A DNA stretch of 44,137 bases from Candidatus Nomurabacteria bacterium (GTDB lineage: Bacteria; Patescibacteriota; Minisyncoccia; Phycocordibacterales; UBA9973), in the NCBI GenBank assembly GCA_026396065.1, contig JAPLXO010000001.1, forward strand, positions 1 through 44,137. Direction: 5' to 3'. Positions 18,486 to 44,137 of the stretch are shown here, piece by piece (positions within the stretch are counted from its first letter, which is position 1; every line of letters begins with the position of its first letter). The notes under the pieces are model-generated. The model had not been told where the DNA came from. It made no database searches and saw only the letters and a program-made list of their open reading frames with translations. A program made the position numbers and the translations under genes.

Positions 18486-19166
18486 CTAATCTTTTTTATT
18501 TTGATTGATAAGAAATGTTAAGCTTGCTCTGCCTAACACAGTCATACCATCACTGGCAAAACCTTGGGCAGCAGATCCTAAATACAGATATGTTGCTGAG
18601 ACGGATATTATCGCTTTACCAGCAATATTATATCCACCATCAAGGGTGAGGCTTCCAACAAAACAGGTTTTTAAAACCCTTTCTTGGTTAGCTTTTGTCT
18701 GCTCTGTAAAAGCAGCACCTAAACCGATAGAAACTCCTCCACAAATACCTCCCGTTTTTTTTCCAGCGTAAACACCAAAATTTCCTGTTAATAATGACGT
18801 ATTGTAAAACGTCTTTTTGTAATAGCTATACCCAGGGTGGGTAGAGTCTACTGCGGAAACAGTAACAAGTGATGAATCTGTTGTAGCGGGACTAAACGGA
18901 ACACCAATCATCATTTCTATCCCAAGTGAAAGTGGAGGTTTTGCTGGTCTCCAACCAAACTGTAGATGTAAAGTGACATCATTTTTCTTCATCACTTCTT
19001 CTTTGTTCGCATTTAGTGCTTTTCCAATACCTGCAATTACAAAAAATTTATTTTTTCCTTCAGAATCTGATGCTGATGCTTCTTCATCCTCTTGTGCCAT
19101 AAGCCCTGGCGCGGTTGTTAGGAGTAGAATTGTAGCTAGTCCAAACATTGTAAAACTTTTTTTCAT
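18486..19166 (-). CDS. Secreted protein, possibly outer-membrane beta-barrel-like
   Basis: Signal peptide ending GLMAQ; alternating glycine/aromatic strands; polar C-terminus; no family recognised. Confidence 0.5.
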   Translation of the reverse strand: MKKSFTMFGLATILLLTTAPGLMAQEDEEASASDSEGKNKFFVIAGIGKALNANKEEVMKKNDVTLHLQFGWRPAKPPLSLGIEMMIGVPFSPATTDSSLVTVSAVDSTHPGYSYYKKTFYNTSLLTGNFGVYAGKKTGGICGGVSIGLGAAFTEQTKANQERVLKTCFVGSLTLDGGYNIAGKAIISVSATYLYLGSAAQGFASDGMTVLGRASLTFLINQNKKD

Positions 19167-33852: not shown

Positions 33853-34281
33853 TTATATTTGTTCTGCTTTTGCTTTTTTTGCTGCCAATTTTGCAGCATA
33901 GTTTTTCCAACCATTAAAATCATAAGGGCTGGTTGGAGAACCATTCATACCGCAAGCGATATAGTGAAATACCAGACTATAGGTATTTTCTAAATCTACT
34001 CGCAACATGCTGGGCAATGTTGTTTTTAATCTTGATTCTTTTTCCAAGAAATCAAGGATTGTGGGAATTCCATCCACTCCTTTTTTTACCAAGTATTTTA
34101 ATTCATAGGAACCTCCTATGATACTTGATAAATCAATTTTGTGGGTCCGGAACTTCCCATCAATCTCAACAACTTTTCGTTCAAGAGAATCGATGAATAA
34201 TTTTGTTGTTGTTTCTTCTTTTTTCAAAGCTTCTGCTTCTGCATTAGCTTTTTTTGTTTTTTGATCTACTTTTTTTGCCAT
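33853..34281 (-). CDS. Hypothetical protein, 142 aa
   Basis: ORF track; own promoter, leader and terminator. Confidence 0.6.
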   Translation of the reverse strand: MAKKVDQKTKKANAEAEALKKEETTTKLFIDSLERKVVEIDGKFRTHKIDLSSIIGGSYELKYLVKKGVDGIPTILDFLEKESRLKTTLPSMLRVDLENTYSLVFHYIACGMNGSPTSPYDFNGWKNYAAKLAAKKAKAEQI

Positions 34282-34367: not shown

Positions 34368-34488
34368 TAGAGAACACTTTGAAAAAAAATCATTCCGTCC
34401 AAAGTGTTCTCTACACTCCTCTAATTAAACAAATATTTCAAAGATCTTTTATTAGGTCGAGTGTAGCATGAATAACTATAAAAGTCAA
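34368..34488 (-). promoter_or_regulatory. Leader: TTGACT-N17-TACACT, AGATCTTTGAAAT (boxA-like), 14-bp hairpin
   Basis: agtcaa 34483-34488; agtgta 34460-34465; stem 34368-34381/34400-34413. Confidence 0.7.
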
Positions 34489-34590: not shown

Positions 34591-34669
34591 AAGATAGTAT
34601 ATCATACTTCAAATAAAAAAGCAAGTTTTATCTCTTGTAAAAAGTGGAAATCTCTGGTATATTGTTTTT

Positions 34670-34957
34670 GCAGGTGTCGGGCAGTTGCTATGGCTTTCGA
34701 GCTATAGAGGAAAGTCCGAACACACAATGGTTTAATCCATACACGTAATGGGTAACGCCCATACACAGCGATGTGTAGTTGCGAACAGAAACGACCCGGT
34801 TAAGTCCGGCTGAAACGGCTAAATACTTACGCGTGTGCAAGATCGTGCCTATCGCAAGATGGGAGAATCGCTTGAGCCATAGAGTAATTTATGGCCTAGA
34901 CAGATAACTGTCGATCCCCTTTTGGGGTGAACAAAATTCGGCTTATAGACACCTGCA
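34670..34957 (+). ncRNA. rnpB: RNase P RNA
   Basis: GAGGAAAGTCCGAAC; ACAGAAACGACCC; ACAAAATTCGGCTTATAG; terminal pairing gcaggtgtc/gacacctgc. Confidence 0.95.
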
Positions 34958-34968
34958 AAAAAAACGAG

Positions 34969-35074: not shown

Positions 35075-38000
35075 TTAATTCACGGAAACTTTCCGCGTGT
35101 ACGATCCCCGTTTATCATTTTGAATATGAATAAAGTAAATACCAGGGGTCAAATTATCTTTGTCAATTTGAAAAGTTCCATCTGCTTTAAAATCGCGAAC
35201 TGTGCGACCTGTAATATCAGATACTGAAACTTTATAATTACCATTTTTTATTTCTACGGTAAGTACATTTGAAAAAGGATTCGGGTACATGTTAATTAAT
35301 TCTTCGCCTACTTCTTCGATTCCAATACTTAACATACTGCTTAGCGAACCGCTACAACCGTTTGCATCGGTTGCAGTTACAGTATAGCTGGTTGCTGTTG
35401 TGAAGGTCATTGACTGACCGGCACCACCAGGATTCCAAATATAGTTGTAAGGGGCACTTCCTCCAATTGCTGTTGCCACAAGAACACTTCCGGCTCCATT
35501 AACTATTACAGTTGGATTCGGATGAATGACAATAGGAAGACTGTTTGCAGTAGCACTACAACCAAAAGAATTTGTAACTATTACACTATAAATTCCGGCT
35601 GTATTTGCATTTGTAGTCTGCCCGATTGTTCCATCGGACCAAGAATAATTCCCAGTCGTAGGATGAGCAGTCAACAATACACTATTACCATCACAAACTG
35701 CTAAGTTTCCACCATAGGTGATACTAGCATTTGGTAATGGATTCACAGTTACAACAGTAGGTGTAGACGTCTTTGAACATCCATTTGCACCAGTTACTGT
35801 TACAAAATAACTTCCACTTGCCGACACAATATTCGTCTGTGTCGTTACTGAGTTGTTCCATAAATATGAAGCGCCACCAGTTGCAGTTAGTTGAACTGAA
35901 TTTCCGAAACAAAGTGTTGTCGGACCACCAGCAAAAATATTTGCTGTAGGTAATGGTTTTACTAAAACTGGTACCGAAGTACCTGTAGAAGAACAACCAT
36001 TAAGATCAGTACCTGTTACATTGTAATTTCCAGTAGTAGTAACTACTGTCGACTGTGCATTTGTTCCATCGGTCCATAAATAAGAAACGAAACCGACAGA
36101 TGCTGTCAAAATTACATTATCACCATCACAAAAAGTGGTCGAACCACTTGTGCTTATTGTTGGTGGTGCTGGTAATTGATTCACTGTTACAGTCACCGGT
36201 GGTGACGTAACACTACATCCTCCTACAGAAAGCTGAACAGTGTATGTTCCACTTGAGTTCACAGTTATACCATTCGTATGATAAGGCCCATTACTCCATG
36301 TGATGTACCCCGATGAAGAGGAACTCATTAAAAGCACAGAACCTCCCTGACAAAAAGTTGTAGGACCTTGCGGGTTTATCACCACGCTTGATACTCCATT
36401 CACTGTGATAGTGAAAACATATGTTGAGTTTGCAGTGCAACCAAGAGTAGTACCAGTTACGGTATACGTAGTAGTCACACTTGGTCTTGCTCCTACAACT
36501 GCTCCGGAAAGATTTCCCGGCATCCAGCTGTAAGTAGTTGAACCAGATCCAGTTGCTACAAAAGTAACTGAATCGCCAACACAAATCGAAGTAGCAGTTG
36601 CACTCACTGAAATTGGTGGTGTTGGAGTTACTGTCACTGTCACTGTTGAAGTGGCAGAACAGTTTCCATTAGAACCAGTTACAGTATAAGTAGTTCCAGT
36701 TACTGGCATCACTGTCCAAGTTGGACCGATGTTAGCTCCTGAATTCCAGCTGTAAGTAGTAGCTCCACTTACTGTTAGCGTTGTAGATGATCCGTTGCAT
36801 ATAGATGCATTGGACGCAGACGCAGTAACAACTGGTGGTGAAACTACAGTCACAACTGCAGTAGTACTAACTGAACAATGATGTTCGATAGTGCCTGCTG
36901 TTTCTACCACTGTATAAGTCGTAGTACCACTCGGTGAAACAGAAAAAATGTTTGAATTCCAAAAGCTTCCTCCTGGACTCCATTCATAAGTTACATTTGC
37001 CTGGTTTGCTGTTAGTGTAGTTGTTTGCCCAAGGCAAATTGTAATACTGTCAGTTCCACTTGCAGTAGTTATTATTGGTGTAGGTGTTTGTATAACCGTC
37101 ACCTCTACCGTTTGTGGAGTTCCAGAACAATTTCCGTTGGAACCAGTTACTGTATAAGTAGTTGTTACATTTGGTGAAACTGTCACACTTGAACTGGAAA
37201 GATTTCCCGGCATCCAATTATAAGAGTTAGCACCATTTGCAGACAATGTAATAGATGTACCAAAACAAATTGTTGTTGGTAAATCTACACTTAGTATTGG
37301 TGTTTGATTTACAGTAACATTTACTGTAGCAGTGTTTGAACATCCACTTGTAGTACCAGTTACGGTATAAGTAGTGGTTCCAACACTTGGTGTAACACTC
37401 CAACTTTGACCAGAATGATTTCCTGGCATCCAGCTATAAGTAGTAGCACCACTTGCGTGTAAAGTTATTGATGAACCGGAACAGATGCTAGTATCGTTTG
37501 ATACAGTTACTGTCGGTACAGGATTTACTACGATTTGAATCGTAGCTGTTGATGTACCAGTACAACCACTTGTAGAACCTGTTACGGTATACGTTGTAGT
37601 CGCACTCGGTGAAACAACTGTACTGTTTCCATTAAATGGAACTCCATCTAATTCATAAATAGATACTCCAGTCATTGTTAAAGTGACAGAGCTTCCATTG
37701 CAAATTATTGCTGATGGAGATGGTGTAATTGTAATTGGTGGATTGGAAGTGATTGTAACTGTAACTGTTTGTGCAGTCGCAGAACAAATTCCATTCGAAC
37801 CAATCACAGTGTAAGTAGTAGTCGTTGCTGGTGTCGCTACAGGGTTAGCAATGTTTGGATCGCTTAAAGTTCCTGCAGGTAACCAAACATAACTTGTAGC
37901 ACCACTGGCTGATAACTGATTTGAGGAACCAGGACAGTTTGTCACTGTTCCACTCACAGCTACAGTCGGCACACTAGTCACAGTCACTGTTGTAGTAGCT

Positions 38001-38803
38001 GTGTTTGAACATCCACTTGTAGTACCAGTTACGGTATACGTAGTAGTTGTTACTGGACTAGCTACAGGATGTTGAACATTTGCATGATCAAGACCAGTAG
38101 CTGGTAACCAGCTGTACGTAGTAGCACCATTTGACCCAAGTGAAACTGAGTTTCCTGCACAAATTGCAGCATCCATACTTGCAGTTACATTCGGTAATGC
38201 ATTTACTGTTACTGTTTTTGTTGCAGTTCCAGTGCAACCACTTTCTGATGTACCTGTTACAGTAAACGTAGTAGTTGCACTTAAAGGAATTCTCACAATT
38301 GTTCCAGAAAGATTTCCTGGCATCCAATTGTAAGTACTTGCACCTGATGCGGTAAGTGTAATTGAATCTCCGGCACATACTGTTTGATTTCCTGTAACCG
38401 AAACCGGCACAGGTAAACAGTCTGTCCAAAAATTGATTGTGTCATCACGCATTACAAGTCCAGTAGAATCGTACGAATCAATATGAATTTTTGCTCTCAC
38501 TAAATTGTGAGGAGCTAAACCACTAATTTGATAAGTAGTTGTTCCACTGATTGCATTCGCACCATAGTACATAATTGTACTTGGTGGAGTTGATACACTT
38601 GTGTGAGCACTCCAGTTGTAAGCACTGTAAGTCACTTCAGATGAATCTGCAGGTATCAGATTACTCCAAGTCCCCACAACATACACTGTCGTTGTTCCTA
38701 CTGTGTTTACTACTGTGTCAATGTTTACGTTTTGACTTTCAGTTTTTCCTACGTTAGCTAGTAATCCAATTACCAGCATAACACTCGTTACGATTTTTTT
38801 CAT
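35075..38803 (-). CDS. Secreted Ig-like/PKD-like repeat protein with C-terminal type IX secretion (Por) sorting domain
   Basis: Signal peptide; about 14 Ig-like repeats (CxGxSxTLxAxGAxTYSWMPG...TTTYTVTGT); C-terminal MYPNPFSNVLTVEI...VSDITGRTVRDF...LTPGIYFIHIQNDKRGSYTRKVSVN. Confidence 0.85.
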   Translation of the reverse strand: MKKIVTSVMLVIGLLANVGKTESQNVNIDTVVNTVGTTTVYVVGTWSNLIPADSSEVTYSAYNWSAHTSVSTPPSTIMYYGANAISGTTTYQISGLAPHNLVRAKIHIDSYDSTGLVMRDDTINFWTDCLPVPVSVTGNQTVCAGDSITLTASGASTYNWMPGNLSGTIVRIPLSATTTFTVTGTSESGCTGTATKTVTVNALPNVTASMDAAICAGNSVSLGSNGATTYSWLPATGLDHANVQHPVASPVTTTTYTVTGTTSGCSNTATTTVTVTSVPTVAVSGTVTNCPGSSNQLSASGATSYVWLPAGTLSDPNIANPVATPATTTTYTVIGSNGICSATAQTVTVTITSNPPITITPSPSAIICNGSSVTLTMTGVSIYELDGVPFNGNSTVVSPSATTTYTVTGSTSGCTGTSTATIQIVVNPVPTVTVSNDTSICSGSSITLHASGATTYSWMPGNHSGQSWSVTPSVGTTTYTVTGTTSGCSNTATVNVTVNQTPILSVDLPTTICFGTSITLSANGANSYNWMPGNLSSSSVTVSPNVTTTYTVTGSNGNCSGTPQTVEVTVIQTPTPIITTASGTDSITICLGQTTTLTANQANVTYEWSPGGSFWNSNIFSVSPSGTTTYTVVETAGTIEHHCSVSTTAVVTVVSPPVVTASASNASICNGSSTTLTVSGATTYSWNSGANIGPTWTVMPVTGTTYTVTGSNGNCSATSTVTVTVTPTPPISVSATATSICVGDSVTFVATGSGSTTYSWMPGNLSGAVVGARPSVTTTYTVTGTTLGCTANSTYVFTITVNGVSSVVINPQGPTTFCQGGSVLLMSSSSSGYITWSNGPYHTNGITVNSSGTYTVQLSVGGCSVTSPPVTVTVNQLPAPPTISTSGSTTFCDGDNVILTASVGFVSYLWTDGTNAQSTVVTTTGNYNVTGTDLNGCSSTGTSVPVLVKPLPTANIFAGGPTTLCFGNSVQLTATGGASYLWNNSVTTQTNIVSASGSYFVTVTGANGCSKTSTPTVVTVNPLPNASITYGGNLAVCDGNSVLLTAHPTTGNYSWSDGTIGQTTNANTAGIYSVIVTNSFGCSATANSLPIVIHPNPTVIVNGAGSVLVATAIGGSAPYNYIWNPGGAGQSMTFTTATSYTVTATDANGCSGSLSSMLSIGIEEVGEELINMYPNPFSNVLTVEIKNGNYKVSVSDITGRTVRDFKADGTFQIDKDNLTPGIYFIHIQNDKRGSYTRKVSVN

Positions 38804-38908: not shown

Positions 38909-39054
38909 ATTAGGAATAGCATTTTCAGACATCCCTTATAAAAAAAGAGACGGCCAAAATGCTATTCCTAATGGCTATTAAGACTAAATTAGGCGAAGAA
39001 TGTCAAAGATCTTGCTCTAGCGGTATCATAGCATAATAGACACCCTATTGTCAA
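38909..39054 (-). promoter_or_regulatory. Leader: TTGACA-N18-TATGAT, AGATCTTTGACAT (boxA-like), 17-bp hairpin
   Basis: tgtcaa 39049-39054; atcata 39025-39030; stem 38909-38925/38956-38972. Confidence 0.7.
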
Positions 39055-39147: not shown

Positions 39148-41670
39148 ATGAAAAATATCATAAAAAAATCAATAGCATTTTTAGCGGTCGTAGTCCTTTT
39201 AGGGCTTAATATAAATACAGCTTCTGCTGCACCTGCAACTCAGGCTTCTACACTAGCGGCTATTAATGTCACAGGTACTTCTATGACTCTTCGTGGAAAT
39301 TACACTACTAACGCAATATCAACAGGTATTATTAATACTTGGTTTGAATATGGAAATAATTACAATACAGTATTGAATGGTGGTGGAACTACATTAAACT
39401 ATTCTTCCCCTGCTACTTCATTTGGAAGTTTTCAAGCAAACTTAACTGGATTAACTCCAGGAAATACTTATTACTTCCGTGCAGTAGTTTCTCAAAATGG
39501 TTCAATAGGATATGGAGACCCATTATCACAGATGACTACACCTAGTGTACAGATCACGGCTGCAGCTTCTACATTGGCTGCTACAAACGTGACAGGTACT
39601 TCTATGACTCTTCGTGGAAATTATACTACTACTGGAACAGGTATTATTAATACTTGGTTTGAATATGGAAATAATTACAATACAGTATTAAATGGTGGTG
39701 GAACTACACTTAATTATGCTTCACCTACTTCTTCATCTGGAAGTTTCCAAGCAAACTTTACTGGCCTAACAGCAGGAAATACTTATTACTTCCGCGCAGT
39801 AGTTTCTATTGGTGGACTTATTAGACACGGAGATACACTTTCACAAATGACTACAGCAGCCACTTCTACTGTACCTACTTTGACTGATATCTCACCTGCT
39901 AGTGGAATATCTGGAAATACATATCCTATCACTTTAACAGGAACAAATTTTGGAACTAATCCAAATGTTTCTTTTAGTTCAGGAATTACTGTAAGTGCAA
40001 TAACTGTAAACACTACTGGTACAAGTATCACTCTTACAATTGTGATTTCAAATACGACGGTAGGTGCACATGACGTAACGGTGACAAATGGTAGCCAAGT
40101 TTCAAATATAAAAACATTCACAGTGAATGCTCCAGCAAGTAATACTTGCGCTACTACAACACCTACTATTTCTTCTATCTCTCCTTCTTCTGTCACAGCT
40201 GGTGCAGGTACCACAAACCTTACAGTAAATGCAACAAACTTAACAAACGGAACATCTATTGTTTTATTTAATGGATCAAGTAGAACAACTACAACAAATG
40301 GTAACGTGGCTACAGCTACTTTAAATTCTTCTGATACAGCTTCTGCTGGAAGTTATACAATCACTGTAACAAATGGAACAAATTGTGTTTCAAACGGAAA
40401 AACTTTTACAGTTAACTCTTCTGGTGGAGGAGGAGGTGGAGGTGGTGGAGGAGCTTATTACACTTACCCATCAATTAGTACAGTATCTTCATCTGTAAAT
40501 GGATCAACTGTTACAATAAATGGATCAATGAATCCAAACTATAATACTGCTACTTCTTGGTTTGAATATAGTACAGACTCATCAACTGTCTCATCTGGAA
40601 ATGGAATTCAAACTACACACAATGCTCAAGGATCTGGAAGTGCAACAATAAACTTTAGTGCTTCTCTTTCACTTTCTTCAAACACTACTTATTATTTCCG
40701 TGCAGTTGCAAATAATTCTTATGGAACTGTATATGGTAATATTTTATCTTTCACTACTTCTGTAACATCTAATAATCAATTAGCAGTTACAACAGTGGCA
40801 GCAACAGATAAGACTAATAATTTTGCTAGATTAAATGGTGTAGCAACAACTCAAAATGGTTTATCTACAAAAGGATACTTTGAGTATGGTACAAGTGCTT
40901 CTTTGGGAAATACAACAACTCAGCAAAACCTAGGAAATACAGATGGAGTTGTGAATTTTTCTGACACAATCTCAGGATTAACTATAGATACAATATATTA
41001 TTTCCGAGCAGTTGCTTTAAATCAAAACAATACTGTACGTGGAGAAATATTTGTATTCCAAACTGGCGTTACCCCAACTTCTACTCCAGTAAATACTGGT
41101 CCAAAAGTTTCAACAGCTAAAAGTAGTATTCTTACTATAACCACAAAAACAGACAATGTTTCTATTGGTGATAAAGTAGAATATCTTGTAGTATTAAAAA
41201 ATACTACTACAAGTAATTTTGAAAATGTAATTGTAAACGTACAGTTACCGAAAGAAATAGCTTTTGATGAATCAAACTTTGGTAAAAAAGGATTAAACAA
41301 TGAAGTAGTGTTAAATGCAGATACTATGGTTCCAAATCAAACAAGCTCAATGACAATAAAAGGACACGTAGTTTCTAAAACAACTTCACAAGACGTAGTA
41401 ATTACAACAGCTACAATGACATACAATGTAGCTGGTTCTACTACACAAAAAGATGAAATTGCTTATGTTACAAATCATATTAGTGATAATAGTAATTTAA
41501 CAGCTGCTTCAATCTTTGGTGCAAATTTCTTACCAAAAACTTTGATTGGATGGTTATTACTTCTTCTAGTTGCATTCGGTTTAGTTGTCGTTGGAAAAAG
41601 ATTATTTGTTGGTTCTCTTTTTAAAAGAGCTACAAATCAATCAAGCCATGACGATCATATGCATGCATAA
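39148..41670 (+). CDS. Surface protein with Fn3-like and TIG/IPT repeats, poly-Gly linker and C-terminal TM anchor
   Basis: Signal peptide; repeated NTYYFRAVV motifs; PTLTDISPASGISGNTYPITLTGTNFG (TIG); GGGGGGGGGG; C-terminal TM. Confidence 0.8.
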   Translation: MKNIIKKSIAFLAVVVLLGLNINTASAAPATQASTLAAINVTGTSMTLRGNYTTNAISTGIINTWFEYGNNYNTVLNGGGTTLNYSSPATSFGSFQANLTGLTPGNTYYFRAVVSQNGSIGYGDPLSQMTTPSVQITAAASTLAATNVTGTSMTLRGNYTTTGTGIINTWFEYGNNYNTVLNGGGTTLNYASPTSSSGSFQANFTGLTAGNTYYFRAVVSIGGLIRHGDTLSQMTTAATSTVPTLTDISPASGISGNTYPITLTGTNFGTNPNVSFSSGITVSAITVNTTGTSITLTIVISNTTVGAHDVTVTNGSQVSNIKTFTVNAPASNTCATTTPTISSISPSSVTAGAGTTNLTVNATNLTNGTSIVLFNGSSRTTTTNGNVATATLNSSDTASAGSYTITVTNGTNCVSNGKTFTVNSSGGGGGGGGGGAYYTYPSISTVSSSVNGSTVTINGSMNPNYNTATSWFEYSTDSSTVSSGNGIQTTHNAQGSGSATINFSASLSLSSNTTYYFRAVANNSYGTVYGNILSFTTSVTSNNQLAVTTVAATDKTNNFARLNGVATTQNGLSTKGYFEYGTSASLGNTTTQQNLGNTDGVVNFSDTISGLTIDTIYYFRAVALNQNNTVRGEIFVFQTGVTPTSTPVNTGPKVSTAKSSILTITTKTDNVSIGDKVEYLVVLKNTTTSNFENVIVNVQLPKEIAFDESNFGKKGLNNEVVLNADTMVPNQTSSMTIKGHVVSKTTSQDVVITTATMTYNVAGSTTQKDEIAYVTNHISDNSNLTAASIFGANFLPKTLIGWLLLLLVAFGLVVVGKRLFVGSLFKRATNQSSHDDHMHA
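39244..39852 (+). repeat. Two tandem near-identical ~290-bp coding repeats (39244-39540 and 39565-39852)
   Basis: Shared VTGTSMTLRGNYTT...GIINTWFEYGNNYNTVLNGGGTTLNY with high nucleotide identity. Confidence 0.85.

Positions 41671-43269: not shown

Positions 43270-44137
<868 letters not shown>

Follow-up and report, generated by a model that had tools for sequence, protein, structure and literature searches.

How does a gene whose product ends in a sorting domain of the type IX secretion system (T9SS) known from Bacteroidota come to lie in a genome of candidate-phyla type, and what might such an ending do there? The question is raised by the stretch of 44,137 nucleotides analysed here (the window), which is contig C10 of an 800-kb genome (97% completeness). 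The gene, hereafter the tail gene, forms an uninterrupted frame from ATG through stop at the position given for it in a preliminary description of the window, and is composed as follows:

35075-38803, minus strand: tail gene, 1242 aa, with signal, an N-terminal domain that has no family assignment, Ig_7 repeats and T9SS type A sorting domain
38732-38803, minus strand: putative N-terminal signal peptide (MKKIVTSVMLVIGLLANVGKTESQ), by inspection of the sequence
38414-38731, minus strand: N-terminal domain, residues ~25-130, by sequence comparison
35354-38413, minus strand: Ig_7 repeat region, from Pfam and relatives
35078-35290, minus strand: Por_Secre_tail, the T9SS type A C-terminal domain, a seven-stranded sandwich, from profiles and model

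The C-terminus is a member of the T9SS type A sorting-domain family (TIGR04183). The NCBIfam model TIGR04183 matches residues 1172-1241 of 1242 (E 8.6e-12, 44.9 bits, cut-off 23) and Pfam PF18962 (Por_Secre_tail) gives E 9.9e-12 and 45.4 bits (gathering 27); both curated cut-offs are exceeded, and the tail recognized in the preliminary description is confirmed at the position stated there. The motifs YPNPF, GIY (GxY) and a near-C-terminal Lys (RKVSVN) are present. Type A sorting domains are seven-stranded C-terminal beta-sandwiches (PMC10994853), and the AlphaFold2 model of the last 171 residues, obtained with 29 relatives in the alignment, is likewise a seven-stranded beta-sandwich with a mean pLDDT of 88.1. 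Foldseek aligned it with 8glk_D, a sorting domain whose structure was determined within the T9SS translocon (TMt 0.77), and with the T9SS C-terminal domain 8qb1_A (TMt 0.67). The sorting domain of the window protein is thus predicted to fold. A profile built from ten tails of candidate-phyla (CPR) proteins found its best PDB matches in 8glk and 8glj, which are structures of T9SS sorting domains within the translocon. With its N-terminal signal, seven-stranded C-terminal sorting domain, motifs and fold the protein resembles T9SS type A cargo (TIGR04183 / PF18962) such as NucA, RemZ and mirolase.

The Ig-like repeats reported at first sight correspond to Ig_7 (Pfam PF19081, E 8.5e-29 in the 1242-aa protein). 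Ig_7 repeats are common. The best named relatives of the region belong to Bacteroidota, at 30-40% identity, and the best solved relative is GhpA, the grappling hook of Aureispira (PDB 9flp and others), whose homologous Ig-like repeats match in 17 stretches (E 3e-64). GhpA is secreted by the T9SS in Aureispira (PMC11205867). It is a heptameric protein of 5898 aa that hooks prey flagella, whereas the window protein has 1242 aa and is not a multi-thousand-residue hook of this type. The N-terminal domain (residues ~25-130) showed no significant relative among the loci fetched for comparison; its attribution to a native surface-protein domain was rejected, as the likeness covers only 20 residues and is non-significant.

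The identity of the host genome was addressed via its ribosomal RNA:

43271-44137, minus strand: partial 16S rRNA, truncated where the contig ends; basis of the placement

This 16S rRNA shows ~68-71% identity whether it is compared with Bacteroidota, Firmicutes or Proteobacteria, and because it is equally far from all three the genome is not one of Bacteroidota. The order-mates have genomes of 0.4-1.2 Mb at high completeness. A small genome and a deep 16S rRNA are consistent with the candidate phyla (CPR / Patescibacteria), in agreement with the earlier label of an apparent CPR genome; identity is ~70% to every phylum seen, and Bacteroidota, the placement that would have spoken against that label, are not the closest.

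T9SS models were applied with Neolewinella and Flavobacterium as positive controls for SprA_N and PorV. Both models match the controls at E 1e-123 to 1e-138, but among the tail-bearing genomes of the order SprA_N matched none of the 11 searched and PorV none of the 16 searched, the window genome included in each case. GldM had no match in the genomes searched, with a model that lacks a working control, and the T9SS gene models found no match in 14 further control genomes either. Of the T9SS genes proposed for a search at the outset, sprA and porV were covered. The window cell thus appears to be without a T9SS of its own, and the view of the protein as a T9SS substrate does not hold for its own cell, where SprA and PorV were not found, nor was GldM (no control). 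In these respects, i.e. a cell outside Bacteroidota with neither SprA nor PorV found, the protein differs from known type A cargo. An intact tail with YPNPF, GxY and C-terminal Lys is what a true substrate of a divergent T9SS in the same cell could carry, yet the silence of the SprA_N and PorV models in the window and related genomes, with matching controls, and of GldM (no control) makes such a system very improbable. It follows that TIGR04183 matches alone are no proof of a T9SS in a genome.

Cells of the candidate phyla have a single membrane. As a separate observation, the ORF at 18486-19166 (minus strand) encodes a secreted, beta-strand-rich protein of 226 aa that looks like an outer-membrane barrel by eye, which would be odd if an outer membrane is absent. 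Pfam and NCBIfam give no match for this ORF, and a barrel structure from a single-sequence model was discarded as unusable (pLDDT 31).

The immediate neighbourhood of the tail gene bears on whether it belongs to this genome at all:

34669-34961, plus strand: RNase P RNA (rnpB), convergent neighbour of the tail gene, with the same layout in G010
39148-41670, plus strand: divergent neighbour, an 840-aa FN3-like surface protein with a C-terminal FLPKTLIGW-TM-basic anchor

In genome G010, another species of the same genus, rnpB, a tail gene and a divergent FN3 gene follow in identical order on a 274-kb contig; in G016 a tail gene adjoins rnpB and is flanked on the opposite side by divergent FN3 genes. 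Assembly chimeras and mis-binned Bacteroidota DNA classically show themselves as foreign-looking genes in draft genomes of several contigs. Still, because the gene order beside rnpB is kept in G010, with a similar neighbourhood in G016, the argument already made against a simple chimera is strengthened. Moreover, the window tail gene has host-like fourfold GC and a leader common to other window genes (see below), and in many species tail genes are embedded in long contigs and surrounded by housekeeping genes. We regard a chimeric or mis-binned origin as exceedingly improbable. It should also be noted that the FN3-like surface proteins near rnpB (window 39148-41670, and those of loci L137, L144 and L142) have a common anchor composed of F[LM]P.T, W, a TM segment and basic residues.

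The region upstream of the tail gene contains a composite leader, defined as TTGAC / TANNNT / boxA TCTTTGAMA followed by a hairpin of 14-17 bp:

39025-39054, minus strand: promoter-like TTGACA-18-TATGAT of the tail gene
39000-39012, minus strand: boxA-like AGATCTTTGACAT of the tail gene leader
38909-38972, minus strand: leader hairpin of the tail gene, 17-bp exact stem (ATTAGGAATAGCATTTT)
34435-34447, minus strand: boxA of the same leader type, upstream of ORF 33853-34281 (minus strand)
19314, 30695, 34488 and 39054, minus strand: starts of the leaders for the 226-aa secreted protein, a DapD-like protein, a 142-aa unknown protein and the tail gene, respectively

The tail gene leader folds at -36.4 kcal/mol. 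As originally proposed, it is common to other genes: the composite leader precedes four window genes, all on the minus strand (18486, 29257, 33853 and 35075), compared with an expectation of 0.03 promoter-plus-boxA matches in a shuffled window, where no match had a hairpin, the statistic having been chosen after the sites had been seen. Other loci of the genus (606 kb, of which 36 kb come from the window genome) contain six leader matches, four of them with a hairpin; three of these four precede tail genes, in G010, in G016 and at the C5 copy of the window genome. About 406 kb scanned of the window genome yielded only five composite leaders, two of them ahead of tail genes. Conversely, none was found in 629 kb of Bacteroidota loci, so that the leader type, seen in the genus, sets the tail gene apart from T9SS type A cargo as far as these loci show. 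It is possibly an antitermination-type leader serving four unrelated window genes.

The Bacteroidota ancestry suggested for the gene is upheld by its named relatives (51), which are Bacteroidota or subgroups thereof except for two loci of one "bacterium" MAG. Fourfold-site GC of the tail gene is 17.3% compared to 18.0% for the other window genes; since the value equals the genome's own, either the gene has adjusted or its donor was equally AT-rich, and host-like codon usage could mean the latter just as well. Direct evidence for gene-sized acquisition in the genus comes from the GC-rich genome G007, in which two tail genes have 28-35% fourfold-site GC against 61-66% for other genes of the same stretches. 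These AT-rich genes lie amid neighbours at or near host GC (long genes 60-74%, a giant surface gene 54%, a 112-aa ORF 47%). Two of 396 Bacteroidota genomes contain NGW-type cargo bodies. The bodies from the PPDK locus match weakly, over ~77 positions, in 2/396, and their donor is therefore unsampled or the bodies have diverged far.

A study on Patescibacteria reports that genes are received one at a time and that the donor phyla include Bacteroidota (PMC12455944). The present case is similar in that individual genes are concerned, and differs from the transfers described there in that cargo genes of a single class are met repeatedly at common loci. In that study, a term search for secretion, sorting and adhesion returns no mention.

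The acquisition is not an isolated one, as might have been supposed from the window by itself. The window genome has three tail genes (the window copy and those on contigs C5 and C3), and T9SS tails occur in 40/397 genomes and 26/179 genera of the order. Locus context was read for the tail genes of the window's genus and of G393, a member of another family; some of the remaining order-level matches lie on short contigs. The tail genes examined lie among housekeeping and surface genes, and different cargo bodies with tails recur at the same loci. A nusA-tpiA-pgk island contains tail genes in G003, G007, G012, G022, G028, G033 and G401 as well as in G393, although for G022, G028 and G401 some stretches stop before tpiA or show the nusA side only. 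The PPDK-valS interval is occupied in G003, G006, G007, G022 and G028, the rpsF-ssb locus in G012 and G401, and the murI locus in G022 and G029; rnpB is a further tail-gene locus in the genus. Outside the genus, a tail gene adjoins tpiA at six order-level loci. In summary, the presence of T9SS cargo genes in bacteria of candidate-phyla type that have no detectable T9SS is real and recurrent.

Two further observations were made in this survey. G071, of the same order and another family, gave ten tail matches, several in tandem, which point either to a genome rich in tail genes or to contamination. In the nusA-tpiA island, secreted proteins with lengths of up to 1911 aa have a common C-terminal motif of the form KxPxYxE, perhaps a sorting signal, with the endings KAPVYKEK, KQPIYKEQ, KKPGYKEN, KNPHYIEN and KNPHYQEN:

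L160, 10737-16472: KxPxYxE-type protein
L164, 12251-17026: KxPxYxE-type protein
L165, 5669-9742: KxPxYxE-type protein
L167, 10608-11720 and 12148-13449: KxPxYxE-type proteins

The other two tail genes of the window genome are decaying. The C5 copy (L158, 5989-8160, plus strand) is interrupted by an in-frame TAG, its tail is degraded and lacks YPNP, and it is probably a pseudogene by its sequence; the C3 tail has lost the PNP motif. The window copy might therefore be a passenger that has not yet decayed, i.e. an acquired gene without present function, caught between acquisition and decay. Patchy occurrence in the order, the pseudogene and degraded tails and the recent, unadjusted copies in G007 all fit such a fate. 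It is, however, at odds with 1242 intact codons of host-like fourfold GC, with a leader common to three other window genes and with an intact homologue at the same place in G010, and we consider it unlikely.

A different significance of the tail would be that of a host-docking tag, in which the sorting domain is kept for recognition by the PorV/PorU attachment machinery that a Bacteroidota host has on its surface, and fixes an epibiont adhesin there. The host would then be Bacteroidota or Ignavibacteria-like, and tail flavour would track host identity. At PPDK-valS the tails are 61-72% identical compared to 26-42% for the bodies, most synonymous sites being close to saturation, and the tails are predicted to remain folded. 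A near-invariant tail Lys contacts PorV (PMC10994853); with C-termini read by eye, it is kept in 33/48 CPR tails and 27/38 Bacteroidota tails (Fisher P = 1). An erosion of this Lys in CPR tails was considered and rejected, there being no difference between the two sets. Varied tail-bearing cargo returns to the same loci, and at murI two species encode proteins of ~120 aa with little beyond signal peptide and T9SS tail (L014 1481-1843, minus strand, in G029; L027 1489-1848, minus strand, in G022). Tail flavour, assigned by eye as a QNYPNPFNPxTxI form or a second form, tends to be uniform per genome, with three of 18 within-genome pairs discordant (P ~0.01, or 0.03 when shuffled within loci). 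We take the former flavour to be Ignavibacteria-like and the latter Bacteroidia-like; their uniformity may reflect host, donor or phylogeny.

Several points weigh against docking. The tail sits inside the SprA pore, SprA provides about half of the contact, and affinity for PorV outside the pore is probably reduced (PMC10994853). Because most synonymous sites are close to saturation and the G007 copies were recently acquired, selection inside CPR cannot be taken as the cause of tail conservation; the same tail/body pattern would arise at PPDK-valS if the genes had been acquired independently from tail-rich donors, and recurrent transfer from such donors explains most of the overall pattern. Moreover, two of the three tails in the window genome have degraded motifs. 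A docking function is thus judged quite unlikely.

The reading that we favour, and hold to be reasonably probable, is that of a horizontally acquired, Sec-exported adhesin under a native-type leader, with a tail that a T9SS of its own cell cannot use. It builds on the computed domains, modelled fold, synteny, common leader, host-like codon usage and absence of SprA and PorV matches, and we infer the steps beyond these. A Bacteroidota T9SS cargo gene would have entered a candidate-phyla-type bacterium by horizontal transfer, and would be transcribed from the type of promoter-boxA-hairpin leader that other genes of the genome have as well. Sec would export its product across the one membrane that such cells are expected to possess, and outside the cell the Ig_7 repeats would most likely serve as an adhesin for contact with neighbours or a host. 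Homology to GhpA makes adhesion the likeliest role of the Ig_7 region, a comparison tempered by how common such repeats are. The sorting domain would fold, yet the cell would have no T9SS able to use it, such a system being apparently absent.

A literature search of titles and abstracts found no earlier report of recurrent T9SS cargo in candidate phyla. To our knowledge, only a minority of candidate-phyla bacteria have a known host. Genes with a Bacteroidota address that recur at shared loci, and in this genus stand behind a leader common to other genes, name a candidate donor and host group, and the window protein is a concrete surface-protein candidate for work on the host.
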